Assembly: GCF_004137795.1 (NCBI RefSeq)
Contig: NZ_NWTM01000002.1
Coordinates: 124,001-188,000, forward strand
Reading direction: 5' to 3'
Length of the DNA: 64,000 bases
Source of the DNA: Pectobacterium zantedeschiae
GTDB taxonomy: Bacteria > Pseudomonadota > Gammaproteobacteria > Enterobacterales > Enterobacteriaceae
In this document: positions 4,741-23,731 of the stretch, piece by piece
Numbering within the stretch: the stretch's first letter is position 1
Layout: every line of letters starts with the position of its first letter
Position numbers and translations under genes: made by a program
The notes under the pieces: generated by a model
What the model saw: the letters and a program-made list of their open reading frames with translations, nothing else
The model's database searches: none
Told to the model about the DNA's origin: nothing

Positions 4741-5555
4741 TGACATCTCGTACCGCGCAAGTAGAAAAATTGGATACCGCGTTGCCGCCTTATCCGGCAC
4801 CGAACACTCATGTGACCATCCGTGGCTTGAACAAGTCGTTTGCGGGTCAGCCGCTTTATACCGACCTGAATCTGGATTTGCCGCGCGGCAAGATCGTGTC
4901 TATTTTCGGGCCGAACGGCTGCGGTAAGTCGACGCTGATGAACATGATTGCCGGGCTGATCCCCGTTGATAGCGGCGATATTCTGTTTGATGGTAAAACG
5001 CTGGCTGAAACCAGAATTGGGTATGTGTTTCAAAACTATCGTGATGCGCTTTTTCCCTGGATGAGCGCCTGGAAAAATATTGCTTACCCGCTGGTACGTA
5101 GTGGAATGCGCAAACAGGATGTTCAGACGCGCATGGACGAACTGATTGCGATGTTTGATATTCGTTTTGACCTTCAGCGCTATCCGTATGAACTGTCGGG
5201 CGGACAGCAGCAGACGGTGTGTATTATGCGGGCGTTAGCGACGGGGCCGGAGGTTATGTTTCTGGATGAACCGTTTTCGGCGCTGGATTTTGAAATGACG
5301 CTGTTCATCCGCGACAAGCTGCAAGAGGTTCAGTTGGCAACCGGCGTAACGATGGTCATCGTGTCACACGATTTGGAGGATGCCGTGTTTCTGGCGGACG
5401 AAATCCTGCTGCTGACGCGTCGGCCAACAACGGTGTCGGAGATTGTTCCTTTCGATTTAGTGCGTCCACGCGGGGCGGAGGCGATGAGCGATCCAGAGTT
5501 TATTCGCGTCAAGGCGCACACGCTGGAAGTATTCAAACGCGAAATGGCCGCATAG
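4737..5555 (+). CDS. ABC importer ATP-binding protein (SsuB/TauB-like)
   Basis: This 272-residue ATPase powers the importer. It shows Walker A (GPNGCGKST), Q-loop (FQNYRDALFPW), signature (LSGGQQQ), Walker B (VMFLDEPFSALD) and the switch histidine (IVSHDLEDAV). The Q-loop followed by LFPW is characteristic of the sulfonate/nitrate/taurine subfamily. It has a 25-30 residue N-terminal extension before the nucleotide-binding domain. The start at 4737 overlaps the permease stop; a second ATG follows immediately at 4740. A long hairpin downstream closes the operon. Confidence 0.9.
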   Translation: MMTSRTAQVEKLDTALPPYPAPNTHVTIRGLNKSFAGQPLYTDLNLDLPRGKIVSIFGPNGCGKSTLMNMIAGLIPVDSGDILFDGKTLAETRIGYVFQNYRDALFPWMSAWKNIAYPLVRSGMRKQDVQTRMDELIAMFDIRFDLQRYPYELSGGQQQTVCIMRALATGPEVMFLDEPFSALDFEMTLFIRDKLQEVQLATGVTMVIVSHDLEDAVFLADEILLLTRRPTTVSEIVPFDLVRPRGAEAMSDPEFIRVKAHTLEVFKREMAA

Positions 5556-5573
5556 GGAACACCAATCTGGCTT

Positions 5574-5609
5574 TCTGTCTCCTAAACGGCAATGGGTTTG
5601 GGAGACAGA
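5574..5609. terminator. Long hairpin between the convergent importer operon and MFS gene
   Basis: TCTGTCTCC-TAAAC pairs with GTTTG-GGAGACAGA around the loop GGCAATGG, giving a 14-bp stem with one T-G wobble. No T-run follows on either strand, so it is probably an RNA 3'-end structure for both convergent transcripts rather than a textbook intrinsic terminator. Confidence 0.55.
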
Positions 5610-5626
5610 CAGCGAAAATTCACTCT

Positions 5627-6793
5627 TCACTCTTCACTCAGCGAACGCGCTGCGTGTTCCTTTCTTAATACGCTCTGTATGCCGACAAACAGCACGCCGA
5701 TGAGTAGCAAGATGGCGATGAGGCCGTCGTGACCGTAAAACGTCATCGCTGCGCCGGAGAACAGCGGCCCGGTGATACTGCCCGCAGACCACACCAACCC
5801 CAGAAGAGCATTCATCACAATCAGCCGCTGACCGGCAAATCGCTGACCGGCCCGAACCAGAGACAGCGTGTAAAGCCCACCCGCCGCCGCACCCAGCATG
5901 ATGCAGGCCGGTGCCAGCAGGGAGGGAGAGGAAAACGAGAGGGCGGTACTTATCAGCATCACACAGAAAAAGACGCCGCAGCCGATGTGGGTTTTTATGA
6001 TGCCGCATTTGTCCGCCAGCCAGCCAATCGGCATTTGAAATAAAGCATCACCCAGAAAGATGAGTGTGACTAATAAGATCGCGGATTTTTCGTCCAGCCC
6101 CTGTGCCATGCCGTAGAGTGGAAAAAGCGACAGTATACTGGCGTCAAAGAAGGAGAAGCAGAGTACGCCAGAGGCCATTACCGGTAGAAAAGGAATAAGA
6201 TCCCGATAAGACGCTGAGGACTGCTCATCGGCTCGAACCATGCTGGCGCAGTTCCTCAGCATAAGCGCACATGCGCCACATATGCCGCAAATCAACCATA
6301 GCGCATAGGTTTGAATATCCTCACCAGCAGCAATAAGCAGCGGCCCTATCAACTGACACCCCGTGAAAACGGAGGCATACAGCCCTGTCAGCGTTGCTTT
6401 ATGTTTGTTGGACGCCCGGCTGGTGACCCAGGTTTCTCCCAGTACCACAAGGATCCCTGAGGCAAGACCGGTTAACAAGCGGGGTAAAATGAGTGAGGCA
6501 GGGTGTGACAGCAGGAATGAAGCAATGGTGGATACCGCCAGAACCATCAGGCTGCCGGATAACAGATATCTGGCGTGCAGGTGACGGCTGAGCCAAGGCG
6601 TAATAAAGGATGAGAGCATCATTCCTGCCGCTGGAAGTGCAGCCAGAATACCGAGCGTCGTCGTGTTGTGCCCGTGTTTGGCTAGCTTCAGGCTGATCAG
6701 CGGCAGTGTGTACCCCGTGACTAACCCCACGAGGGAGGCGGCAATAATCATGTTCAGTGTCGTGAAATTGGATTCACGGGAATGTGCAGTCAT
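5627..6793 (-). CDS. MFS transporter (YcaD-like)
   Basis: A 388-residue polytopic membrane protein of the major facilitator superfamily with about 12 hydrophobic segments. The loop after TM2 (SRHLHARYLLSGS) and the mirrored loop in the second half (LADKCGIIKTHIGCG) match the conserved G-x3-D/R-x-G-R loop position. Short hydrophilic tails suggest a drug/metabolite efflux role; the substrate is unknown. The start at 6793 is chosen for its GGAAACAC ribosome binding site; the longer frame begins 36 nt upstream without one. The LysR gene ends 19 bp before it on the same strand, so the regulator and pump are likely co-transcribed. Confidence 0.82.
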   Translation of the reverse strand: MTAHSRESNFTTLNMIIAASLVGLVTGYTLPLISLKLAKHGHNTTTLGILAALPAAGMMLSSFITPWLSRHLHARYLLSGSLMVLAVSTIASFLLSHPASLILPRLLTGLASGILVVLGETWVTSRASNKHKATLTGLYASVFTGCQLIGPLLIAAGEDIQTYALWLICGICGACALMLRNCASMVRADEQSSASYRDLIPFLPVMASGVLCFSFFDASILSLFPLYGMAQGLDEKSAILLVTLIFLGDALFQMPIGWLADKCGIIKTHIGCGVFFCVMLISTALSFSSPSLLAPACIMLGAAAGGLYTLSLVRAGQRFAGQRLIVMNALLGLVWSAGSITGPLFSGAAMTFYGHDGLIAILLLIGVLFVGIQSVLRKEHAARSLSEE

Positions 6794-6812
6794 TGTGTTT
6801 CCAGTACGCGTG

Positions 6813-7697
6813 TTAACAAGGATCTTCAACGCCAGAAAGGCAGGTGGAAACCTCCTGCATCAGCCAGGCGTGAAATCGTGCATATTTTTCATTTTGCTCA
6901 ATGGGGACGGGCGATAACAAGTAATAAGCAGAGCCGTCCCGCGCAAATCCATACGGTGCATGCAATTGCCCACTCCCAATCTCGTCTTGCACCATCAGGA
7001 AAGACGCCATTGCCATGCCTAACCCTGAAACCGCAGCCTGAATGCACAGATAAAAATGCTCATAGTCAGCTCTGATGCTGCCTTTGAGGGAGACGTGTGT
7101 CTGCCGCTGCCACGTTGCCCACGCTCTTGGTCGCGTTCCAGTATAAAGCAAACGCATTCCCTCCAGACTGTCCTTGCGTTCGTCTTTGTTGCGGCTGACT
7201 GGTCCCATCCATTCGTCACATACCTTTATCCCATGCGTTTGCGGCTCCCAGTGAAAATCGTCACGCCGCAGTGCGAGATCAACGCCGCTACGCACGAAAT
7301 CAATCGGCCCACCCGCAGCCACCAGATGAAGTTTGATATCGGGATTCGCTTGATTAAAAGCAGGCAGCCGCGGAATCAGCCATTTCATGGCAATGGTGGG
7401 TTCGCATGACAGCGTCAGTACATCATCCTGTGCACCTTGCTGTAGCCGATATACGGCCCCTTCAAGCTGCTCGAAGACGGACTGTGTGACCGTGTGTAAA
7501 GAGTGGCCTGCCGCGTTTAAAAAGATCGCTCGATTGCGTCGTTCAAACAGTTCAACCCCTAGCGCGTCTTCCAGCAATCTAATTTGTCTGCTGACGGCAC
7601 CGTGTGTGACATGCAGGGACTCGGCGGCTTTAACAAAGCTACCTGTTTGTGCGGCCGCTTCAAAAAAGCGAAAAGAGGCTAATGAGGGAAGTTTCAT
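6813..7697 (-). CDS. LysR-family regulator (GcvA-like)
   Basis: This 294-residue protein has an N-terminal winged HTH (residues 1-62, with ...AAESLHVTHGAVSRQIRLLE) and a C-terminal periplasmic-binding-protein-like effector domain. The PSLASFRFFEAAAQTGSF start and THGAVSRQ recognition helix are typical of the GcvA/AmpR-like branch. The ATG at 7697 is preferred over a GTG two codons upstream. It is followed closely by the MFS gene on the same strand and is divergent from the LysE-type exporter, so either transporter may be its target. The effector cannot be inferred. Confidence 0.85.
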   Translation of the reverse strand: MKLPSLASFRFFEAAAQTGSFVKAAESLHVTHGAVSRQIRLLEDALGVELFERRNRAIFLNAAGHSLHTVTQSVFEQLEGAVYRLQQGAQDDVLTLSCEPTIAMKWLIPRLPAFNQANPDIKLHLVAAGGPIDFVRSGVDLALRRDDFHWEPQTHGIKVCDEWMGPVSRNKDERKDSLEGMRLLYTGTRPRAWATWQRQTHVSLKGSIRADYEHFYLCIQAAVSGLGMAMASFLMVQDEIGSGQLHAPYGFARDGSAYYLLSPVPIEQNEKYARFHAWLMQEVSTCLSGVEDPC

Positions 7698-7949
7698 ATA
7701 CACGATGAAATTTGACAGATTTACACCAAGATAAATCGCTTTTTTGACACATGCAAACGCTGAATAATCAAACTGCCTTCAAGCTAAAAGAAGCGTAATA
7801 GCCTAAATAGTGAGGCGATATTGTAGGAATGGTGCTTTTGATAGCCGTATAGCAACAACAGTCGCTGTATTCCTCTTCTAACCCACCTGATACCCATCTG
7901 TGCAAAATCATCGTGAAAAATGATGGCTTGCCGAATAAGGAAAACGTTA

Positions 7950-13096: not shown

Positions 13097-14572
13097 ATGA
13101 AATGTCATCGTTTAAATTTATACCTCGCAGCAGCCGGATTGGTATTCTGCATAGGCTCTGCACTTGCAGAAACCAGCGTTTCTGTTGAAGTGAAGGATAC
13201 CGGGAAGTTGCAAAAAAAAGGCTCGGTTTCTCTCTTTAATGCACCAAATAATATTCAAGCGGATGCCGGGAGTTATTATAAATTTCACAAAGCTGAAAAT
13301 GAGGGCGTTGTCGTTATTGCCCCTAATGCATCAACTGCGCAAACTGATGCAAACAGTGCACAAAAAAAATCGTTATCAAGCACCCAGTCTCTCGCCAATG
13401 ACAGCACATTCACCCCTTTGTGCCCCACTCTAGCAGTAAACTCAATTTATACGCTGGGTGGGCTGCAAAGTGGAGGTAGCGCTTGCTATCATTTTGAAAT
13501 CACCCAGCGTTCTAAAACAACCGCTTTCGTCGTAGGGATGAGTCCTGAAACCGATATTGCTCTCAGTTTGATGCGGGATGATGGACAGAATAATGTGACG
13601 GCAATTAATTATTCTGATCAAACGGGGAATGCTGATGAGGCTACACTGAATTTAACACAGCCGGGGCACTACTATTGGTTTATGGAAGCCAAAACAGCAG
13701 ATGGTTCTGGTTTTAATTTTGGTGCTATCGTTAATACGAATATAGATGCTTATGAGTTAAATGATATTCCTTCTCTGGCCTATCCTTTACCGGATGGTTT
13801 GAATGTCGTTAACGGAAATTCTGATAGCGATTCTGATGCGGATTACTACGTATTTACCGCAATTCGTGGCCAACGTGTTCTTCTGCGCCTTGATGGCGTT
13901 GCTAGCGGAACGAATAACAATTGGTTACTGGCATCTTCTACCGATGGTGGCAATAACTGGACAACGCGCAATACCGCGCAGGGACATCTTATTGTTCCTT
14001 CTCAGGCAAATGAAAAAGTTCTGGTAAGAGTCTTGCCTAATCCATCACGGTTACCAACCGTTTCTCAAGTCTATAAATTGACCTTAGGTTCACAAATTGT
14101 AGGTTCTATTTCTGTTGAGGGAGAAAGTAATGTTCTACGTATCCCGAATGCGGCACCAACAGCTTTTGGCTTTATGACTACACAAGCCTATCGCGATGTT
14201 ACCTGGCGTGTACGTGCTGCCGATTCAACGGGAGTAGGTATGCCCAATATTCAAGCGAAACTTTATCTTGATCAGCGAGAAAGCAATGGTGAATTGCTGT
14301 TTGATGACACCAATCTTCATGTCATAACGACCAATGCCAACGGAGATGCGTCAGGGACTGTGAAGTTGGATACCTGCCATGCCGATTATACGACGCAGTT
14401 CCAGGATCACAGTCAAGGTTATATTAATACATGGGGAACAACCTATGATGTGGGTGGGTGGCGTGTTGAAATCCCAATTCAGGAAGGGTCTGGAGTAGGT
14501 GGTAACAATTCTACTCACGTCACATTCGGGCACATTTGTAAGCAGACCTTGTTGAAAAGCGTAAAATCTTGA
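13097..14572 (+). CDS. Secreted protein with PPC-like beta domains
   Basis: A 491-residue exported protein with a clear Sec signal peptide (hydrophobic core at 8-20, cleavage after SALA at 24). Two segments resemble the bacterial pre-peptidase C-terminal (PPC) fold: about 105-205 (NSIYTLGGLQSGG...YHFEI...GHYYWFMEAK) and 215-330 (AYELNDIPSLAYPL...DADYYVFTAIRGQRVLLRLDG). PPC domains usually accompany secreted peptidases, but no peptidase domain or catalytic triad is visible. The last 150 residues look all-beta. Two cysteines near each domain start could form disulfides. The gene is flanked by AT-rich DNA and sits next to the tRNA-Gly island boundary. Function is unknown; surface or matrix binding is only a guess. 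Confidence 0.72.
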   Translation: MKCHRLNLYLAAAGLVFCIGSALAETSVSVEVKDTGKLQKKGSVSLFNAPNNIQADAGSYYKFHKAENEGVVVIAPNASTAQTDANSAQKKSLSSTQSLANDSTFTPLCPTLAVNSIYTLGGLQSGGSACYHFEITQRSKTTAFVVGMSPETDIALSLMRDDGQNNVTAINYSDQTGNADEATLNLTQPGHYYWFMEAKTADGSGFNFGAIVNTNIDAYELNDIPSLAYPLPDGLNVVNGNSDSDSDADYYVFTAIRGQRVLLRLDGVASGTNNNWLLASSTDGGNNWTTRNTAQGHLIVPSQANEKVLVRVLPNPSRLPTVSQVYKLTLGSQIVGSISVEGESNVLRIPNAAPTAFGFMTTQAYRDVTWRVRAADSTGVGMPNIQAKLYLDQRESNGELLFDDTNLHVITTNANGDASGTVKLDTCHADYTTQFQDHSQGYINTWGTTYDVGGWRVEIPIQEGSGVGGNNSTHVTFGHICKQTLLKSVKS

Positions 14573-14873
14573 TACGCAAGCCAATGAGATATCTGGCCGC
14601 CTTATTTTAGGCATTCCGGTTGTGGAGGCGGGCTTATGGCTTCGCCTCCATAGCGCTGGAGCCGATTGGCGCGGTACGTGGACGGCAATGTTTTTCAGTG
14701 AAAAGGGCTTGCCACGTTAGGTTGATTGGTACATAATGCTGACCGTTGAATCGCCTTACTGATAAATAGTGATACAATTCATTAGGTTACATGCGATTTA
14801 ACAGGGTTAAACTAGTTTTGGTTTCAGCATGATTTTTTTTGCTGAAAGTTAAAGCTAATAAATCCGATTCTAT
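14573..14873. other. Spacer between the secreted-protein gene and tRNA-Gly
   Basis: No gene is seen. An inverted repeat TGGAGGCG / CGCCTCCA at 14623-14650 with a 12-nt loop may end the upstream transcript but has no T-run. The tRNA promoter should lie in the last 100 bp. Confidence 0.45.
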
Positions 14874-14957
<84 letters not shown>

Positions 14958-15176
14958 GTTCTATAGACATCCACTAAAGTCTGTAGTTCTCTGATTCAAC
15001 AGGGTAATCGCTCTGTTGAGCGTCCAGCGAAATCCACTGAAAACCACCGTCAACCACACCGAAGTAGTACACAAATTAGTACATGAAAATCGGGTGCGTT
15101 GTGGGTGCGGATTGGTTGCTGAGTCGCTTCCCCGTGCGCGGTACACCTCTCTTCAACCCTGAAGGAGGCAACCCCT

Positions 15177-16510
15177 ATGGCGTTAACCGATGCCGTCGCC
15201 CGGCAGGCCGCACCACCGGCAAAGCCTATACCCTGAACGACACCCACGGGCTGTCGCTGTTTGTGACCGCCAACGGCGCGAAGAAATGGCACTTCCGTTT
15301 TTCGTTGCAGGGCAAACAGCAGCGCATTTCCTTAGGTTCCTATCCTGAATTTTCCCTTAAACAGGCGCGCCAGCAGCGCGATGAACTGCGCGCGCAGTTG
15401 GCCGGGGGCGTCGATCCGCGCCGCTACCGCCAGCAGTGCAACGCAGCGGCGCAGAATACCTTTGACGCGGTGTTCCGCCAGTGGCGCGACTTCAAGGCGC
15501 TGAGTCTGGAGAGCGGACGGCAAAGCACGCTGTCGCAGATCAACCGCATATTCGCTAAGGATGTGTTGCCGTCGCTGGGCGGCCTGTCGATTTCTGACGT
15601 GGAGCCGTCGTATATTCTGGCGGTTTTGCGCCGGATAGAGCAGCGCAAAGCGTTTACCACCGCCGAAAAGGTGCGCACCTGGTTGAACCAGTTATTCCGC
15701 TACGCCAAAGTGGAAAAGGGCGTGCGCTACAATCCGGCCAGCGATCTGGATATTGTGGCCGCGCCCCGACCGCCGGTGACGCATAATCCCTTTTTGCACA
15801 TGGATGAGTTACCGTCGTTTTTGCGCAAACTGCGCGACTACCACGGGCAGGAGACAACCCAACAGGGCTTACGCCTGCTGTTGTTGACCGGCGTGCGTAC
15901 CGGCGAGTTGCGCCTTGCTGAACCTAATCAGTTTGATCTTAAGCGTGGGCTGTGGATTATTCCGCCCGCATCGGTCAAACAGTTGCAGGTCAGGATGCGC
16001 CGGGAAGGTAATAGAGTCCCGGCTTATGTGGTACCACTGCCGCGACAGGCCATCGATATCGTAAACGCGCTTTTAACCTTGCAGAAGCGACGACCGGCGC
16101 AACGCTACCTGTTTCCCAATTGCAACAACCTGCAAAAGCGCATCAGCGAAAATACGCTCAATAATGCGCTGAAACGTATGGGTTATGCAGACCGACTAAC
16201 CGGTCACGACATCCGGGCGACGATCTCGACGGCGCTTAACGAACTCGGCTATCCGAAAGAGTGGATCGAGGTGCAGCTATCCCATGCCGATCCTAATAAG
16301 ATCCGGGCGGCCTATAATCATGCGGTTTACGTTGAGCAGCGGCGGATGATGATGCAGGAATGGGCCGACAGGTTGGATCGGTGGGAGGGTGGGGAAGCAG
16401 TGATGAAAACCGCTGCGCCGCAAGGTGTTAGTGCGATCGGTATCGCGGCAAGCAGCTGGATGCAGCCTGTGGAAGGCGTGCCGTTGTTACGTGAAATCAT
16501 TTTGCGCTAA
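15177..16510 (+). pseudogene. P4-type tyrosine integrase with one-base frameshift near its start
   Basis: Site-specific integrase for the island. The natural start is ATG 15177, preceded by a strong GAAGGAGG; it reads M-A-L-T-D-A-V-A-R-Q-A-A-P-P-A-K-P and then hits TGA at 15234. The rest of the protein continues in another frame as Y-T-L-N-D-T-H-G-L-S-L-F-V (from 15227), which is the expected next segment of the family's N-terminal domain. One base is missing around 15222-15227. The catalytic part is intact: Arg in LLTGVRTGELR, H-D-I-R, LSHADPNKIRAAYNHAVY with the Tyr. A 475-codon frame from 15083 bypasses the shift but has no ribosome binding site and a nonsense N-terminus. It could be a sequencing error or true decay. 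Confidence 0.82.
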
Positions 16511-16751
16511 GCGGCTTATGTTTCGCCGGGATCTTGCCAATAATGCTGATGGGATCGATCGAGAGCAAACGGGCAAGGTGGACAAATTCGACGATGTCTA
16601 ACCGGCGCTCTCCGTTTTCGACCTTGGCGATAAACGACTGAGGGCGATCCAGCGCCTGAGCCAGACTTTCCTGCGTGACCCCTTTCTCTATGCGCGCCTC
16701 GCGTAGCGCCTTGATAACACGTTGATATTCATCGGAGTAAATGGAAGCCAT
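16497..16751 (-). CDS. XRE-family HTH regulator, copy A
   Basis: An 84-residue single-domain Cro/C1-type DNA-binding protein: residues 9-65 form the HTH (REARIEKGVTQESLAQAL, then RPQSFIAKVENGERRLD). It is a close paralogue of copy B, both starting MASIYS and sharing PQSFIAKVENGERRLD, so they arose by tandem duplication. Its end overlaps the 3' end of the integrase frame by 14 nt on the opposite strand. An operator-like TATCC-N7-GGATT lies about 50 bp upstream of the start. It probably represses itself and neighbouring island genes. Confidence 0.88.
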   Translation of the reverse strand: MASIYSDEYQRVIKALREARIEKGVTQESLAQALDRPQSFIAKVENGERRLDIVEFVHLARLLSIDPISIIGKIPAKHKPLSAK

Positions 16752-16802
16752 TTGATCAATTCCGTTAGAAAGACCGGATTGACTATCAATGACGGATTGA
16801 TT

Positions 16803-16819
16803 TATCCCAAAATAGGATT
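16803..16819. promoter_or_regulatory. XRE operator-like palindrome 1
   Basis: TATCC-CAAAATA-GGATT, one mismatch from the TATCC-N7-GGATA pattern shared with the sites at 17114 and 17148. It lies between the two XRE genes, upstream of copy A. Confidence 0.5.
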
Positions 16820-16837
16820 AACAGCATTGGCGGTTGG

Positions 16838-17095
16838 TCAGGGTTTATGTCTACTTAATTGTTTTTTATTAATTATTTTCTCTAAGACAGTGGCGATATC
16901 GATGGATAGCAGATGCGCGATACAGGCAAATTCCACAACATCCAGCCTGCGTTCACCATTTTCGACTTTAGCGATAAACGACTGCGGTCGGCCTAGCGCT
17001 TCGGCCAGACTTTGCTGGCTGATGCCTTTCCTGATTCTGGCTGCCCGAAGCGTTTTTATAACGCTCTGATATTCTTCTGAATAAATTGACGCCAT
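16838..17095 (-). CDS. XRE-family HTH regulator, copy B
   Basis: An 85-residue Cro/C1-type HTH protein, paralogous to copy A (MASIYSEEYQ..., RKGISQQSLAEALGRPQSF, KVENGERRLDVVEF). The start at 17095 matches copy A's start and has AAGG 8 nt upstream; the longer frame from 17134 runs through the promoter. Copy A follows 86 bp downstream. Two operator-like palindromes lie just upstream, between this gene and the divergent Ner-like gene, giving a phage-switch-like layout. Confidence 0.88.
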   Translation of the reverse strand: MASIYSEEYQSVIKTLRAARIRKGISQQSLAEALGRPQSFIAKVENGERRLDVVEFACIAHLLSIDIATVLEKIINKKQLSRHKP

Positions 17096-17113
17096 CTCGT
17101 TAACCTTGACTGA

Positions 17114-17130
17114 TATCCCAAAATCGAATA
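17114..17130. promoter_or_regulatory. XRE operator-like palindrome 2
   Basis: TATCC-CAAAATC-GAATA, one mismatch from the shared pattern, extended by GA/TC on the flanks. It sits 19 bp upstream of copy B. Confidence 0.5.
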
Positions 17131-17147
17131 TCAATCATTTATTTGAT

Positions 17148-17164
17148 TATCCCAAAACGGGATA
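17148..17164. promoter_or_regulatory. XRE operator-like palindrome 3 (perfect)
   Basis: TATCC-CAAAACG-GGATA; the extended form ATTATCCC-AAAAC-GGGATAAT has perfect 8-bp arms. It lies between copy B and the divergent Ner-like gene. The pattern recalls the HipB operator (TATCC-N8-GGATA), but the spacing is one base shorter. Confidence 0.6.
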
Positions 17165-17199
17165 ATTAATGAGATTCGTTATGGAGAGGAGTTAGAGCG

Positions 17200-17445
17200 A
17201 TGAATAAAAATGACTGGCATCCTGCTGATATCATTGCATCTTTGAGAAAGCAGGGAACAACGCTGGCTGCGGTTTCCCGAGAGGCGGGGCTGGCATCTTC
17301 CACGCTGGCGAATGCGCTGACGCGACACTGGCCGAAGGGAGAGCGCTTAATTGCTGATGCACTGAAAAAACAACCGGAAGAGATCTGGCCTTCACGCTAT
17401 CAGGATATCGGGCGAGGGCAGGGCGGAGAAGGAGAGGTGGATTGA
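17200..17445 (+). CDS. Ner/Nlp (SfsB)-like HTH protein
   Basis: An 81-residue DNA-binding protein resembling phage Mu Ner and enterobacterial Nlp/SfsB: DWHPADIIASLRKQGTTLAAVSREAGLASSTLANAL is the HTH (here only key parts matter: TTLAAVSREAGL and the STLANAL helix), followed by W-P-K-G-E-R-L-I-A-D-A-L and EEIWPSRY. A GGAGAGGAG ribosome binding site precedes ATG 17200. It is divergent from XRE copy B over about 105 bp that contains two operator-like palindromes, so it is probably repressed by the XRE proteins and may itself regulate island genes. Confidence 0.85.
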   Translation: MNKNDWHPADIIASLRKQGTTLAAVSREAGLASSTLANALTRHWPKGERLIADALKKQPEEIWPSRYQDIGRGQGGEGEVD

Positions 17446-17500
17446 AAACCCACCCGGCGAAAATTTACAAATTTTTTTCATCCTGTTAGTGGATTTAGAC

Positions 17501-17543
17501 GCTCCTTACTGGATTTCTATGGAATAGAGATCCAGTAAGGAGC
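17501..17543. repeat. 43-nt near-perfect palindrome
   Basis: Arms GCTCCTTACTGGAT (17501-17514) and ATCCAGTAAGGAGC (17530-17543) are perfectly complementary. Inside them, TCTAT and ATAGA also pair, with a single T-G wobble between the two stems, leaving only GGA (17521-17523) unpaired. The 20-bp stem is far longer than a normal terminator and lacks a following T-run. Confidence 0.85.
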
Positions 17544-17567
17544 CAACAAGCGCAGCGCGTTAGCCGC

Positions 17568-18113
17568 TTGATATACGGATTTTGGCGCAGTAGATTGTCA
17601 GTGTCACACCGCTGCTGCACGCAGCACTCTCATGTTGCCACGACCTTCAAGGCAACGCGCAGGCCCAGCCTGTGTGGTCGGCTCCCAACCCGTCCCGCTA
17701 CCAGTTTGCGGGTGATCGCTGTGGCGATGGTAGCTCACTTGTCCCAACGCCTTAGGGCTGCATCCTGTTTATTCTTCGTGAAGCAATGGCTTTTCGCATA
17801 CGCACTGATGCGTACAACACCCCTTATAGCTGGCGCAACCGTCTGCGGCCTTTTGCTGCCTCAGCCTAGCTTATCCATGAGGCAGCGGCGTCACTTCACA
17901 CGGCGGAAAGCCGTTGCAAGTGACGCCGCGAACGATCTCTGCGCCAGCCCTTACGCCACAGCGCTTTCCGGCGCGACCTGTCATCTGACGCATATTTTCT
18001 GCGTCAATTCTCATCAACCCACTTATCAGAGGAGGACTGAACCGATACCTGAGGCAGGCTTTCAGCCTGAGGGGATTACCCTGCTGATGCAGGCGGCTGC
18101 ACCGAGTGCATAA
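17568..18113 (+). CDS. Doubtful ORF, 181 aa (possible Ash/Icd-like satellite ORF)
   Basis: The frame is open for 546 bp in the GC-rich island segment, but there is no good ribosome binding site and the composition is odd: many Cys, Arg, His and Ser, few acidic residues. P4-type satellites often carry poorly conserved, similarly biased ORFs here (Ash / Icd-like division inhibitors), and the stretch RLRAASCLFFVKQW is vaguely like them. It could equally be an open frame by chance in palindrome-rich DNA. Treat as unproven. Confidence 0.25.
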   Translation: MIYGFWRSRLSVSHRCCTQHSHVATTFKATRRPSLCGRLPTRPATSLRVIAVAMVAHLSQRLRAASCLFFVKQWLFAYALMRTTPLIAGATVCGLLLPQPSLSMRQRRHFTRRKAVASDAANDLCASPYATALSGATCHLTHIFCVNSHQPTYQRRTEPIPEAGFQPEGITLLMQAAAPSA

Positions 18114-18243
18114 CCGATATCTCCGTCATACCTCAACCGCTGCCGCTCCGGCGCACAGGTATTGTTCAGTGCGGCACGGTAAATCCGTGTCGTAAATCGC
18201 CGTGCGCCGGAGAACAGAGGTTATTAAGAATAGGGGAGATTCT

Positions 18244-19091
18244 ATGTCACGATTAAGTAGGGCGATGCAGACGCTGGCCCGACAGGCTGGCGGCAGTCAT
18301 AAGACGGTTCATGACCGGCTAAAAATTGCAGAGCGGCTTGCCGGTCATCTGCGGTCTTTGAATATTCAGGTCCGCTCGGCGCAGCATCTGAAGGCAAAAC
18401 ATATCGAATGTTATATCGCCGAACGGTTAGAACAGGGAATTACACTGCACACGCTGCATAATGAAATGGCAGCAGTGCGGGTAATGCTGCGCATTGCCGG
18501 GCGGGCTAAGCTGGCGGATGCGGAACGGCTGAGCAACAAGACGTTAGGTCTGAGTGGGGCTAGCCGGAGCGCTATCGGGCGGCGCTGGCAATCCTGCAAC
18601 AGAAAGACACTGGACTCGCGCTGACGCTACAACTGGCTCGAATGATGGGCCTGCGATCGCAGGAAGCGGTGCAGTGTTCGCAATCGCTCAAGACATGGGC
18701 TACCGCGCTGGAGCGAGGCGACGAACAACTGACGGTGGTATTCGGCACCAAAGGCGGACGGCCACGACAAACGTGGGTGCTGGATCGGGAAACGTTAACG
18801 CAGACAGTGAATCAGGCACTGGCAGTTGCCGCTACCTGCAACGGTCGGCTGATTGATAAACCGGATCTAAAAAGCGCCATGAACCGCTGGCGTTCACAAA
18901 CCGCTCTGGCAGGGCTAAAGGGGCAATATTCCCCGCACAGCCTGCGTTACGCATGGGCACAGGATGCGATGTGTTATTACCGGCGGCAGGGTTTCAGCAA
19001 CCGGGAAGTCAGCGCGCTGGTGTCGATGGATTTAGGGCATGGAGATGTGCGAGGGCGGTATGTGCAGCGGGTTTATGGGAAAGCGCTGTAG
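18244..19091 (+). pseudogene. Tyrosine-recombinase-like protein (SAM-like N-domain plus integrase domain), frameshifted
   Basis: The N-terminal half (MSRLSRAMQTLARQAGG...LHNEMAAVRVMLRIAGR) is an integrase SAM-like DNA-binding domain. The frame ends wrongly after L-S-G-A-S-R at about 18567, and the rest continues one frame over from E-R-Y-R-A-A-L-A-I-L-Q-Q-K (18567 on). Restoring one G (CCGG to CCGGG at 18564-18568) joins them into a 282-residue protein. The catalytic domain is recognisable: MMGLRSQEAV with Arg, H-S-L-R-Y, and LGHGDVRGRYVQRVY with Tyr. Such proteins occur beside P4-type integrases in enterobacterial islands. The start at 18244 has an AGGGGAGA ribosome binding site. Confidence 0.8.
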
Positions 19092-19331
19092 AGTGTTGTT
19101 GAATAAATCGGAGTGTACTGGATCATACTTGATCTGGTACTTTCGCTGATCTGAGCGCAATCTAATCGGCAGGCGGCTATGCGCCAGGAGCGGACATTCC
19201 TCAGTTCGTATTGCATTAATTAGCGTGGAACAGGTCATTAAATGTGTATAAAAATCTAGTAATAAATGTAATATTATCAATATAGTGCATTCGAGTAATC
19301 TTATGTTATTAACGATGTTTACGAGGATAAT

Positions 19332-20111
19332 ATGGAAAAGGAAACAATGGCGCTAATAGAGTCAATCCCAAAAGAGGTTTGGCTCCAACTATATAACGAC
19401 TCTTCTCAACCGATGTTGAAGCAGTTTGGCCGATTTGGCGAGGATCTTGCCAAAACACTGCGGCTTGTTACTTTTCCTATCCAATGTACAGCATATATAC
19501 AAGATCGAGTCGACAGAGGTTTTTCGAAAGCATTACAACAAGTGCCGGAAGAAAGACGTGTTGTGCCACCCGAAGGATTGGTGTTGGACATTGCCGATAA
19601 GCTCAAGCACCATGATTGCGAGTCCTTAGTCGGAAAACTTTACGTCGAATTGTTGACTGCTTCTATGGACACTGAAAGAGCACATCAAGCACATCCGGCA
19701 TTTTTGCCAATCATCGGGCAACTTTCATCTGATGAAGCACTATTCTTATTGCGCCTATCTGAAAAAACACCTTCTATTTATGTCAGAGATAAAAAGAATT
19801 GGGATCCGGTAAGCCAAACGGAAAGGGAGGTGTTTTTGAATGACGTGACATTTCCCATTCATGATGTGGAAACTAAACTTTTAGATCTGGCACTAAAACC
19901 AGAAGAGCTTTACTATTCAGAAAATTTTTATATTTACATTGAGCATCTTAACGAGTTAGGCCTTCTGGAATATAGTAACGACTATTCAAATAAAAAATGG
20001 GATAGCTGGAGAGAACTTACGGCTGGTCAATATGATATGTGGTTTATTGAGTTAACAAAGTTTGGTCGTTTATTCTTTAAGTGCTGTAACGCTGCCTTAG
20101 ATAGCATTTAG
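19332..20111 (+). CDS. DUF4393-type protein (island cargo)
   Basis: A 259-residue soluble protein whose central part (about 75-145: E-E-R-R-V-V-P-P-E...HHDCESLVGKLYVELLTASMD...HPAFLPIIGQLSSDEALFL) matches my recollection of DUF4393, in which an HPxF and LSxDEA pattern recurs. No function is established to my knowledge. The rest is helical, with an aromatic, AT-rich-encoded C-terminus. The start has GAGG 6 nt upstream. The gene is visibly more AT-rich than the chromosome and lies next to the TOPRIM gene. In islands such pairs are often phage-defence or toxin-type cargo; that is inference. Confidence 0.75.
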   Translation: MEKETMALIESIPKEVWLQLYNDSSQPMLKQFGRFGEDLAKTLRLVTFPIQCTAYIQDRVDRGFSKALQQVPEERRVVPPEGLVLDIADKLKHHDCESLVGKLYVELLTASMDTERAHQAHPAFLPIIGQLSSDEALFLLRLSEKTPSIYVRDKKNWDPVSQTEREVFLNDVTFPIHDVETKLLDLALKPEELYYSENFYIYIEHLNELGLLEYSNDYSNKKWDSWRELTAGQYDMWFIELTKFGRLFFKCCNAALDSI

Positions 20112-20405
20112 TATTATTGGTCATCTAATTGTAATGTAAATATTCCATTAAGAGAAATTATTCATTTCCATTTAACACATGCATTCTTGCGATTGTAACG
20201 TCCGCTTTCGCTCACAACGGACCTTTAGCTCAGTTAGCTTGTCCGCTCCTGCCAGAAGCGGACATTGCGAACGCCTTAGGGGGCTGGTCAATTCAGATGT
20301 TAATTGATTTGGGGCATGGTAATATTTAGGCTCTGTAGGATACATTTTTCGCAGTATTTTCGGTTTTCAATAGCGAGTGGGATTAACTCTCAGAGGAGTC
20401 AGTTA
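20112..20405. other. Spacer between the two cargo genes, with two related hairpins
   Basis: AT-rich start, then two hairpins sharing the GTCCG/CGGAC core: 20200-20222 (GTCCG...CGGAC) and 20241-20263 (GTCCGCT...AGCGGAC). A similar AGGAGCGGACATT string occurs at about 19188, before the DUF4393 gene. These may be remnants of a repeated sequence or ends of the upstream transcript. The spacer ends with AGAGGAG before the TOPRIM gene. Confidence 0.45.
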
Positions 20406-21116
20406 GTGGGAACAACAATGGAGGACATCCAATACGACGAAATGTTAAATGAGCTTCTCTTTCAAGAAGTAATGAAGAATGAAGCAAAAAAACAGTGTAT
20501 TTATGTTTTTGTCGAAGGTGAGTGCGAAGAACTTGTTTTTCAACCCTTACTTGAAAAATGTGGCATAGATTTTGATAAACTTGGCATTGTAATTGCTAAT
20601 TACAATGGGGTAGGTAATTTAAAACATGCCATAAGACTTCTAAATAAAACATTGAGCCATGATCGACCAATAATAGTAACATATGATGATGATCATGAAG
20701 GAAAGAAAATAAATAAAATAAATACACCATTGATAACATACTTTAAAATACCATTTAGACCTATGGTTTGTTATCGTGATGGCTCTTTAGGAGGAGCATT
20801 TGAAGAAAGTTTTCCTAAAGATTGCTTTTTAGCAGCTTGTTTTCAGAAAAATGTCATAGCTAATTCTTTTTTATCAAGACGTAATGACTTTGAAAAAACA
20901 TTTAATACAACCAAGTCGTGGTTATCTCAATTAGCACAATTCATTTCATTCAATGGTGGACGTCCTGATTCTATAAATAAAATAAAATTGGCTGAAAACA
21001 TGATGCTTTCAGTGTCTCAGATACCTGAGACTTATAAGGAATTAGCCAAGGTCATTATTGATATTAGAAACAAAAATCCAATAAAGCATCCTGAAGATAT
21101 AGATTTAAATTTGTAA
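20406..21116 (+). CDS. Small stand-alone TOPRIM-domain protein (OLD-like), island cargo
   Basis: A 236-residue protein with a TOPRIM-like core near its N-terminus: the first strand ends I-Y-V-F-V-E37-G-E-C-E-E, and I-V-T-Y-D94-D-D96 supplies the DxD, followed by H-E-G. This E...DxD pattern is the metal site of TOPRIM nucleases and primases, including OLD-family nucleases, but no ABC ATPase domain is present. GTG 20406 is chosen because AGAGGAG lies 8 nt upstream; ATG 20418 in the same frame is the alternative. The C-terminal 130 residues are helical and not recognised. The gene is strongly AT-rich. A role in DNA cleavage or phage defence together with the DUF4393 protein is plausible but unproven. 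Confidence 0.7.
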   Translation: MGTTMEDIQYDEMLNELLFQEVMKNEAKKQCIYVFVEGECEELVFQPLLEKCGIDFDKLGIVIANYNGVGNLKHAIRLLNKTLSHDRPIIVTYDDDHEGKKINKINTPLITYFKIPFRPMVCYRDGSLGGAFEESFPKDCFLAACFQKNVIANSFLSRRNDFEKTFNTTKSWLSQLAQFISFNGGRPDSINKIKLAENMMLSVSQIPETYKELAKVIIDIRNKNPIKHPEDIDLNL

Positions 21117-21792
21117 AAAATGCTGCTTATATTCACAAGCTGAACTTTTCGTATTTAGTAGATATTATCGCAACGTTCGGTTTTCGCTCGTAGCTGACAA
21201 GGAGCTATCTCGCGAACAGATTCAGTGCGAAAAGCCGATGCGCTAACATCACAGATGTATTCATCAATGGGGAGCAGGTCAGAGACACCTTGCCAACGTC
21301 CCCAACCTAGTACACAATATAGCCAGCAAACAAACAAGGTGTACCGAAAATCCTTGTTGAATCAGCCGATTGAGTGAGAAATGACTATCTCGTTTCCCGC
21401 TCCAAAATTCTTCATCCTCTTCATTACTCTCCCTTTCTTACTCTGACATCCGGCTTTATCACTGTCTGCTATTTCGTTTAACCTCATTAAACGCCGATAT
21501 TTTCCATAGCTAAATGGTATTTCTGTTAAACATCATCATTAACCTTCTGAAACCGGTGTGCCAACACTTTGGCTATCGTCACATTAAAACGATTAAAGTC
21601 TTCTGCTGTCATGGTCGTTAAGTCATTAGAGGCATTGCCATCTTTATTTGGCGCTTGCATCGATTGACGATGCCGTTATGGTCTGGAAACTGGCCAATGA
21701 CGGAGAAAGCACCTTAGGCGGCTTTTCCTAAAGCACAAACAGTAGGATAATTCGGTTCATGTGATGCTCTAGGGGATCAATAAGAGGCAAGG
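21117..21792. other. Right end of the island and spacer before the export operon
   Basis: This stretch of 676 bp contains a TAGTACACAA repeat (21308-21317) and the right attachment repeat (21388-21412). After that, chromosomal sequence resumes. A 44-codon frame on the minus strand (21526-21660) has no ribosome binding site and looks like a gene remnant. The promoter of the export operon must lie in the last 100 bp, which end with AAGAGGCAAGG before ATG 21793. Confidence 0.5.
21388..21412 (+). repeat. Island attachment-site repeat, right copy
   Basis: Identical over 25 bp to 14933-14957, repeating the 3' end of tRNA-Gly plus AAAATTCTT. It marks the distal end of the island. The tRNA itself is not duplicated beyond the T-arm. 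Confidence 0.9.
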
Positions 21793-22494
21793 ATGTCTAA
21801 TGAAAGAGTAACGAATCTGATCTGTTTACAAGGTATTTCACACACCTACAGTACCGGTGCTTCTTCTCAATCGGTGCTTCATGATATTTCACTGTCCATT
21901 CCTGCTGGGCAAAGCTGCGCTATCGTTGGTGCATCGGGTTCTGGCAAAAGTACTTTGCTCAATATTATCGGTTTACTCGATCAGCCCGTTTCCGGGCGGT
22001 TATTGCTTGCCGGGAAAGATATGGCCAAGGCAAATGCCGATGAACGCGCCATCATGCGCAATCAGATCATTGGTTTCGTCTTCCAAAGTTTTAATTTGCT
22101 GCCGCGTCTGGATGCGTTGGATAACGTCGCACTTCCCTTGACCTATCGCGGCGCGTCTCGGCAGGCCGCTCGGCAAGCCGCGCAAGTACAGTTGGCGCGT
22201 GTCGGCCTTGCTGAGCGAAGTCACCATCGGCCAGCCGACTTGTCTGGCGGCCAACGTCAGCGGGTAGCGATTGCACGCGCACTGGTCGGGGAACCAGCAC
22301 TTCTTCTCGCGGATGAACCGACTGGCAACCTTGATAGCCAAACGGCTGATGACATCATCACACTATTGCTGATATTGAACCGCGAACAGGGTACGACACT
22401 CGTGATGGTGACGCATGACGAAGGCATGGCCTGTCGTATGGCTCGGCGTATTCAGGTGCAAGATGGTCGAGTCTATGAGGTGAATCATGCCTGA
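21793..22494 (+). CDS. ABC exporter ATPase (MacB/LolD-like)
   Basis: A 233-residue ATPase with Walker A (GASGSGKST), Q-loop (FQSFNLLPRL), signature (LSGGQRQR), Walker B (LLLADEPTGNLD) and H-loop (MVTHDEGMA). The FNLLPRL and PTGNLDSQT stretches place it with the MacB/LolD/FtsE-type mechanotransmission ATPases. It is the first of four genes overlapping by 8 nt each. Together with the permease it should form a split MacB, here with ATPase and membrane part encoded separately. Confidence 0.9.
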   Translation: MSNERVTNLICLQGISHTYSTGASSQSVLHDISLSIPAGQSCAIVGASGSGKSTLLNIIGLLDQPVSGRLLLAGKDMAKANADERAIMRNQIIGFVFQSFNLLPRLDALDNVALPLTYRGASRQAARQAAQVQLARVGLAERSHHRPADLSGGQRQRVAIARALVGEPALLLADEPTGNLDSQTADDIITLLLILNREQGTTLVMVTHDEGMACRMARRIQVQDGRVYEVNHA

Positions 22495-23731
22495 TCCTCG
22501 TTTACGAATGGAAGATTGTCAGGCGCAGCGATGTCACTATGGCCCTTCACTGCAACAGCGTCTACTTGAGCCGTTGAACAGCCTTATTCTTCTGGGGCGG
22601 CGGGCGGTTCTGGCTCTGCTGGGGATCGCCGTAGGGTGCGGTTCTGTTGTCGCTTTGCTCAACGTTGGCCATAACGCGGAAACTGAAGCCTTGGGCGTAT
22701 TCAGAGGAATGGGCAGCGATCTTCTGGTCGCCACCGTTCAGAATCGAGTAGGAAGTCATATTAACGGTTCGGCTCCTGCTGACCTGGATATTCCCGCTTT
22801 GCGACGAAATCTGCCTGATATTAAGGCGGCAACTGCGTTAATTGTTACTTCTACTGAGGCGCGATTACGTGGCCGTTCACTGAGCACCATGGTTGTGGGC
22901 AGTAGGGCTGAATTGTCTGAAGTATTAGGGTTGAAGCTCGCGCAAGGCCGCTACCTGAGTGATTTCGATGAGCAAAGTACATACATCGTACTGGGTGCGA
23001 ATGTTGCAGCGCAATGGGCATCGCAAGGCGGCGTGGCGACTTTAGGCGAGCGCGTGCAGGTTGGCGAATATTTGTTTGAGATTGTGGGAACCCTGCAACC
23101 GCAGGGACACAATCCTCTGGTTCCTGTCTCCGTGGATGACTCTATCCTGATGCCTATCTCTGGTATGCGCCGTGTCATGCCAACACCACAGATCGTCAGT
23201 GTGATTGCCCGCAGCAGCAGCAGCACGCTGATGCAAACCGGCTCACGGTTAAAGGATTATTTGGCGCCTCTGATGCCGAAGTTGGATATCGATGTGCAAA
23301 TCCCACAGCAGTTGCTGGAAGGAATGGCGCAGCAGTCACGGATGTTTTCATGGTTGTTGGCCGGACTGGGAGGGATTTCTCTGCTGGTAGGCGGAGTTGG
23401 GGTGATGAACGTCATGGTCATGAATGTGTCTGAACGGCGTCGTGAAATCGGTGTTCGTATGGCGTTGGGCGCGCGACCGCGCGATATTGCCGGGCTGTTC
23501 TTACTGGAGGCCATTGTTCTTTCCGCTTGCGGAGCCCTGATTGGGGCGGTGTGTGGCGTCGTAGCGGCGTGGCTGTTTGTCTTTTTTTCAGATTGGTCAG
23601 CGTTTTCGCTCTCGGCATTGTCACTCCCCCTTGGTATTGGCAGTTCACTGGCGATCGGCCTGTTTTTTGGGCTTAATCCTGCGATGACGGCGGCTCGGCT
23701 CGAACCCGTACAGGCGCTACGCGATGCGTAA
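22487..23731 (+). CDS. MacB-like ABC permease
   Basis: A 414-residue permease with the MacB/FtsX layout: one membrane segment near residue 40-60 (AVLALLGIAVGCGSVVALL), a large periplasmic domain (about 65-280), and three C-terminal membrane segments with the loop VSERRREIGVRMALGARPRDI. The latter is the family's cytoplasmic coupling region. It starts inside the ATPase gene with an 8-nt overlap (ATGCCTGA). It would use ATP hydrolysis by the partner to drive transport from the periplasm through the adaptor and outer-membrane protein, as MacAB-TolC does. Confidence 0.88.
   Translation: MPDPRLRMEDCQAQRCHYGPSLQQRLLEPLNSLILLGRRAVLALLGIAVGCGSVVALLNVGHNAETEALGVFRGMGSDLLVATVQNRVGSHINGSAPADLDIPALRRNLPDIKAATALIVTSTEARLRGRSLSTMVVGSRAELSEVLGLKLAQGRYLSDFDEQSTYIVLGANVAAQWASQGGVATLGERVQVGEYLFEIVGTLQPQGHNPLVPVSVDDSILMPISGMRRVMPTPQIVSVIARSSSSTLMQTGSRLKDYLAPLMPKLDIDVQIPQQLLEGMAQQSRMFSWLLAGLGGISLLVGGVGVMNVMVMNVSERRREIGVRMALGARPRDIAGLFLLEAIVLSACGALIGAVCGVVAAWLFVFFSDWSAFSLSALSLPLGIGSSLAIGLFFGLNPAMTAARLEPVQALRDA

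Follow-up and report, generated by a model that had tools for sequence, protein, structure and literature searches.

Two groups of described proteins are close to the two genes considered here. The first is Abi-alpha of Enterococcus faecalis V583, the product of ef2833 in prophage 6 and a match to DUF4393: as the report on it describes, ef2833 alone stops phage Idefix, with early lysis, and its relatives sit mostly in prophages (PMC6356687). The second is a set of Toprim effectors that come without a fused ATPase. AriB, which works with AriA (PMC12409363), and AbiLii (PMC10440598) are presented in this way, each with a partner gene. Retron-Eco2 (Ec67) has a Toprim domain in which E, an acidic D at +4, DxD, SxE and K follow one another; it is described as having RNase activity, and defence is lost when residues are changed to alanine (PMC12405507).

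A tRNA-Gly island with two cargo genes

The locus lies in a 64,000-nucleotide stretch of DNA (the window, meaning the whole stretch analysed), where both open reading frames were verified (Table 1). Gene A encodes an Abi_alpha protein and gene B an OLD-like Toprim protein. The gap between them runs for 294 bp from the gene A stop to the gene B GTG (20112-20405), as the initial annotation had it, and the low GC content noted there was also confirmed (40.3% for gene A and 31.2% for gene B, with 50.4% for the window).

Both genes sit in an island of 6,455 bp inserted at tRNA-Gly, with an exact 25-bp att repeat at either end (E 8e-8). The window was compared with 12 loci (L034-L045), one of which (L034) is its own genome. 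In three congeners (L035, L038, L045) the flanks meet, overlapping by exactly the 25 att bases, so these sites are read as empty; in L044 the flanks likewise meet with a 25-base overlap and are then followed by different sequence. The pieces compared from L036, L037, L039-L041 and L043 match only from about 21700 onward, on the side away from the tRNA gene. The att repeats and the empty sites bear out the earlier suggestion of an island at a tRNA gene: the island is mobile. In a further congener (L042, 1025-1362) the att sequence and about 100 bases of the right end of the island are all that is in common, which hints that a related element once used or uses this att site.

That the two genes are the only cargo unrelated to mobility is true of the proteins, judged by Pfam, and needs qualification for the island as a whole, since three HTH proteins are encoded there as well and Rfam gives two RNA matches above the gathering score: a radC RNA (17598-17734, 48.8 bits) and an EFASI RNA (18037-18168, 103 bits). 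The second integrase of the island, of the Phage_int_SAM_2/Integrase_1 type, is broken over two frames.

Table 1. Features of the island and of the gene A and gene B blocks (positions in the window)
Feature	Position	Strand	Basis
tRNA-Gly (GCC), integration target	14874..14949	+	ARAGORN; Rfam tRNA
Left att repeat, 25 bp, tRNA 3' end	14933..14957	+	exact repeat; same 25-bp flank overlap at empty sites
Tyrosine integrase	15083..16510	+	PF00589, PF13356, PF22022 above cut-off
HTH regulator	16497..16751	-	PF01381
Second HTH regulator	16838..17134	-	PF01381
Winged HTH protein (Ner-like)	17200..17445	+	PF13693, E 4e-33
Second integrase, N-terminal piece, split across frames	18202..18624	+	PF12834
Second integrase, C-terminal piece, other frame	18642..19091	+	PF12835
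Left-type border repeat before gene A	19170..19200	+	profile from other loci, E 3.6e-4 in 64-kb window
Gene A, Abi_alpha family protein, 259 aa	19332..20111	+	PF14337; PADLOC PDC-S47
Right-type border repeat after gene A	20197..20235	+	profile from other loci, E 3.3e-12
Left-type border repeat before gene B	20233..20277	+	profile from other loci, E 9.9e-10
Gene B, stand-alone OLD-like Toprim protein, 236 aa, GTG start	20406..21116	+	PF20469; Foldseek
Possible degenerate right-type border, end of gene B block	21171..21198	+	E 3.6, not significant alone; homology ends 21179-21196
Right att repeat, 25 bp	21388..21412	+	exact repeat; empty-site comparison

Each gene occurs without the other

Relatives of gene B were collected at 11 loci: two of 5,426 E. 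coli genomes, where DNA covers the gene (L001, L002), one of 72,556 plasmid records (L003), two viral contigs (L007, L033; L032 duplicates the L007 contig), and L012-L017, which are contigs from Enterobacter, Morganella, Marinobacterium, Marinomonas, a Desulfobacteraceae MAG and a Chlorobiaceae MAG. The protein of L012 is identical to that of L001, and 50,697 phage records held no gene B match. Gene A has relatives at 20 loci: the four plasmid records with a match among the 72,556 (L004, L094-L096; the match covers 29% of the query in L096 and 49% in L095), one of the 50,697 phage records (L097), viral contigs (L008-L011), members of the class sample (L018-L027) and a weak match (L093). By DNA, gene A is present in none of the 5,426 E. 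coli genomes; 19 of them matched the query in the border repeat only (see below).

Profiles run against six-frame translations of the available flanks found gene A at none of the 11 gene B loci and gene B at none of the 20 gene A loci. The flanks are of unequal length: 0.7 kb on one side in L015, none in L009, and 2.4 to 3.6 kb in total for L018-L027 and L093. Across a class sample of 369 genomes, the gene A family occurs in 10 and the gene B profile in four (three of these matches are weak, E 9e-5 to 9e-4), and the sole genome with both is the one studied here. In a set of 147 relatives, gene B turns up in one (its own genome) and gene A in two (its own and one weak match, E 4.6e-4).

These counts bear directly on the proposal of the initial annotation that the neighbours form a two-gene system, and a lack of co-occurrence, which had been named beforehand as speaking against it, is what was found. 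Such a system would have Abi_alpha as sensor or inhibitor and Toprim as effector, and the shared strand and island, the distance of 294 bp and the AT-rich composition of both genes fit it. Against it stand the co-occurrence counts (0/11, 0/20, and both genes in 1 of 369 genomes), the division of the DNA into distinct blocks at a border repeat, described in the next section, and the report that Abi_alpha acts by itself in Enterococcus (PMC6356687). That the two genes truly form one defence system is thus very unlikely, and the pair as a unit was rejected on the co-occurrence counts and the DNA history. The evidence favours the other reading that had been offered, of unrelated single genes. We consider it likely that the island carries two independent single-gene anti-phage cassettes side by side, and the adjacency of the two is probably chance; being on the same strand of the same island, they could have come to cooperate in this genome alone.

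DNA blocks and hairpin borders

The block around gene A (19231-20227) is shared with the viral contig L008 at 84.5% identity. The block around gene B, which begins at 20250-20292 and ends at 21179-21196, is shared with L001, L002, L007, L012 and L013 at 86-89% identity. The two blocks have different carriers and abut in a stretch of two hairpins, formed by inverted repeats at 20200-20222 and 20241-20263. The comparison shows separate histories for the DNA of the two genes, which appear to have been acquired as two blocks.

As a bare pattern such inverted repeats number 2 in the window and 1.4 in shuffles. The 106-nt hairpin stretch has a folding z of -1.21, and 23 of 200 shuffles fold as well; RNA structure at the border was therefore rejected, folding being no better than in shuffles. 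We take the hairpins of the gap as real because they recur elsewhere, rather than from pattern counts or folding. The initial annotation had also read the gap as an argument for separate promoters, which the counts do not bear out: promoter-like sites (6 vs 7.5 in shuffles) and terminator-like sites (2 vs 1.6) are at shuffle level.

Two profiles of the border repeats were built from stretches outside the window, the right type from 17 and the left type from nine. They match on either side of gene A and before gene B (Table 1); many of the profile stretches were found with a window query, so these matches are not fully independent. The next-best border match in the window (E 0.0072) is the hairpin at 20233-20277 on the other strand. 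The stem of the border is GTCCGCT/AGCGGAC, a pattern that occurs once as an exact copy in the genome itself. In a permissive search of E. coli (E <=10), part of the border was found in 1,603 of 5,426 genomes, and at least 80% of the query in 73. All 12 of the E. coli border places inspected, a small sample, fall between annotated genes. Four of the border places (L082, L084, L085, L089) lie at most three genes from a GTPase-family gene of an island, one (L081) lies near genes for antitermination protein Q and a holin, one (L083) among phage tail genes, and one (L080) on a plasmid. On the right of L085, L086, L087, L090 and L091 a hypothetical gene comes first and a fragment of an AAA ATPase follows, with transport genes on the opposite side in L087, L090 and L091; these places are partly non-independent, L087 and L091 having identical neighbours.

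Left and right hairpin borders are also seen at L001, L002, L008, L012, L013 and L080-L091, beside cargo genes of enteric islands and prophages. In islands of the E. coli type, the slot beside the GTPase-family gene is occupied by the Toprim gene in L001, L002 and L012 and by other genes in L082, L084, L085 and L089.

It is possible, though we find it somewhat doubtful, that paired borders of left and right type bound single-gene cassettes of enteric islands and prophages, acting as exchange points that shuffle one-gene defence units (Abi_alpha, Toprim) among unrelated mobile elements, and that the Toprim protein is a self-sufficient OLD-type effector with no ATPase sensor. Cassettes of the integron type were considered and set aside: the attC core motifs did not fit the hairpins by eye.

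Gene A is a member of the Abi_alpha family

Gene A belongs to PF14337, Abi_alpha (formerly DUF4393), with 97.9 bits over residues 56-252 and a cut-off of 29, so its DUF4393-type identity is upheld. It also matches three models of the PADLOC candidate PDC-S47 (best E 4e-27); our literature search found no mention of PDC-S47. A structural model from five sequences (pLDDT 69.6) has as its best Foldseek match 3h35_B, a weak one (prob 0.85, E 0.15), and PDB 3H35 is named in the Enterococcus report as well (PMC6356687). With dN/dS of about 0.05-0.09 against two relatives (L008, L009), gene A looks to be under purifying selection; more distant pairs were saturated, for this gene as for gene B. The copy in L008 has an in-frame stop codon near its start.

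Relatives of gene A lie on viral contigs, plasmids and one phage. When the open reading frames of the window and of L004 and L008-L011 were clustered, no family occurred in more than two loci except the gene itself and its antisense frame. In L010 and L011, as read by eye from the open reading frames, the gene stands between lysis and terminase genes.

A neighbour of unknown function, as gene A had been called, is thus no longer the right description, since the family has a single-gene abortive-infection phenotype in the published account (PMC6356687). Gene A shares the Pfam family and the single-gene state of ef2833 and differs in belonging to a proteobacterial branch and in sitting in an integrative island, and a phage phenotype is assigned to it by analogy. 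If it resembles the Enterococcus founder, its protein would act only after phage infection and would disturb the lysis programme, leaving few or no progeny.

Gene B is a stand-alone Toprim protein

Gene B matches PF20469 at 39.5 bits (cut-off 23.2), and a Pfam profile search found no ATPase match in its 236-aa protein. The profile searches used the protein from ATG 20418, which is four residues shorter than the form from GTG 20406. We take the GTG as the start because most relatives share its context, in which the start is followed by G/A-T-T/A, and because five of the 11 (L007, L013, L014, L015, L016) have ATC, ATT or ATA in place of the later ATG; an AGAGGAG-like stretch lies upstream in several relatives. 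The numbering E37/D94/D96 corresponds to this start. All 12 aligned sequences (11 distinct) keep E37, G38, E41, E42, D94, D95, D96, E133 and K192. Position 131 is S in eight of the 12 and A131 in the window protein. The description of gene B as a Toprim protein that has the E...DxD site and lacks an ATPase therefore stands.

An AlphaFold2 model from eight sequences has a mean pLDDT of 71.1. Its five best PDB matches in Foldseek are OLD C-terminal regions (6NK8, 6NJX, 6NJW, 6NJV), with prob 0.99-1.00, E 9.8e-4 to 4.8e-3 and TM by query length of 0.33-0.46; one of 597 matches is at E <=0.001. The B. pseudomallei OLD protein among the matches is called class 2 in one report (PMC10568477). Sequence searches of the PDB returned chance-level matches only, the fold search of BFVD gave no match at E <=0.001, and the local hhalign alignment to OLD spans only 61-69 columns, the global one leaving the SxE and Lys motifs unaligned. 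The initial annotation had asked that the metal-site residues superpose on a Toprim fold: the fold matches do go to OLD, and D94 and D96 fall within residues 94-119, where pLDDT is below 50. Since the Toprim model is moderate overall, the active-site residues were placed by their order and not by superposition.

Compared with class 2 OLD proteins and GajA of Gabija (6NK8, 6NJX), gene B likewise has a Toprim domain with E...DxD, its Foldseek match runs over about 225 columns of their C-terminal region, and the PADLOC GajA profiles match its Toprim part. It differs in having no ATPase half, and the scanned island proteins include no GajB UvrD-like helicase. A further match, to the PADLOC candidate model HEC-01B, is weak (E 3.9e-5, 21.5 bits) and compares gene B alone.

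Retron-Eco2 offers a second comparison, being a Toprim effector that also has no ABC ATPase and has a residue order resembling that of gene B. On this order we infer that E41 may take the place of the +4 acid, followed by position 131, E133 and K192. The Eco2 Toprim domain is fused to a reverse transcriptase, whereas gene B is free-standing: it has no reverse transcriptase match, and no retron RNA is among the four Rfam matches (E <=0.1) in 14500-22500.

Selection on gene B also appears to be purifying, with dN/dS of about 0.17-0.49 in comparisons with the close relatives L001, L002, L007 and L013. This matters for the idea that the gene is what remains of a complete OLD nuclease, in decay after the loss of the ATPase half. 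In the class sample, 61 of 63 PF20469 places are in frames of at least 425 aa, long enough for the ATPase half, so the solo Toprim form is an exception there, and the other short PF20469 frame, in the same genome (L078), resembles a broken OLD gene by eye. Against decay, the short form has 11 relatives, ranging from Enterobacter to the Desulfobacteraceae and Chlorobiaceae MAGs and mostly with the same start, and gene B seems to be kept by selection; a remnant is highly improbable. In L078 (2027-3465, contig C3), pieces of an OLD-like gene and of a UvrD-like helicase lie side by side by eye, apparently a broken Gabija-like locus.

Is there an ATPase partner?

AriB of PARIS, RloB and AbiLii resemble gene B in being Toprim effectors with no fused ATPase and differ from it in having an ATPase partner gene. 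Gene B has no match at E <=1 to the Pfam families for AriB (DUF4435) and RloB, and the island has no AAA or AriA-type partner.

The open reading frames of the window and 10 relatives (all except L033) were clustered for a recurring partner, and no partner recurs: apart from gene B and its antisense frame, no family was common to all loci. Three loci each shared the island backbone on the GTPase side (L001, L002, L012), a LysR-like gene (L012, L014, L015, by eye) and a gene for an ABC-type ATPase (L003, L017, window). The last lies within a few kb of gene B in three of 11 loci; the copy of the window is on the far side of the att site, and that of L003 has an annotation among transporter genes. 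Ten neighbour proteins scanned from eight of the 11 loci included one ATPase, the product of an AAA_13 gene (5525-7876) that stands directly upstream of the Toprim relative in L033. In L016 an OLD-like gene lies two genes downstream (by eye; weak profile match). Because of these ATPase genes in L033, in L016 and in L003, L017 and the window, a loosely associated partner is conceivable. A convergent 301-aa gene with no Pfam match is seen beside the Toprim gene in both L002 (13187-14092), from an island of E. coli, and the viral contig L007 (9060-9965), at 83% DNA identity over about 2.3 kb.

Another possibility is that gene B supplies the Toprim effector and a distant gene of the genome the ATPase sensor, as a PARIS-, AbiL- or RloA/RloB-like system split in trans. 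The pairing of AriB and AbiLii with an AAA or ABC partner gene in the published descriptions (PMC12409363, PMC10440598), the AAA_13 gene of L033 and three other PF20469 places in the same genome are in its favour. The single ATPase among the scanned neighbours, the lack of an ATPase family in more than three loci of the clustering and the lack of a match to the AriB and RloB families make it unlikely.

Two probably independent cassettes and their possible action

We return to the reading of two independent cassettes, each probably anti-phage. In it, gene A belongs to an established family, and gene B is a variant of the OLD Toprim effector that stands alone; the phage-defence role suggested earlier is supported as probable. 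Gene B would correspond to the nuclease part of an OLD protein that moves without the ATPase part. As a Toprim metal nuclease, probably dimeric, it would cut RNA or DNA and so stop infected cells. The trigger may be sensed by the helical C-terminal part of the protein itself or come in trans. A function other than phage defence that serves the mobile element, such as the exclusion of related elements, would suit the many mobile carriers (E. coli islands, viral contigs, plasmids, a phage), and is most improbable given the anti-phage precedent in the families of both gene A and the OLD-type Toprim proteins.

The hypothesis of a pair is thereby corrected, and two one-gene objects for testing are left in its place. 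Of these, the stand-alone Toprim family is the more informative. In the papers cited here, as far as their accounts go, OLD-type effectors belong to a retron, are fused to an ATPase or are accompanied by one as a partner; a conserved solo Toprim protein therefore raises the question of what senses infection. The border repeats, if they are true exchange points, would help in finding further one-gene defence units.
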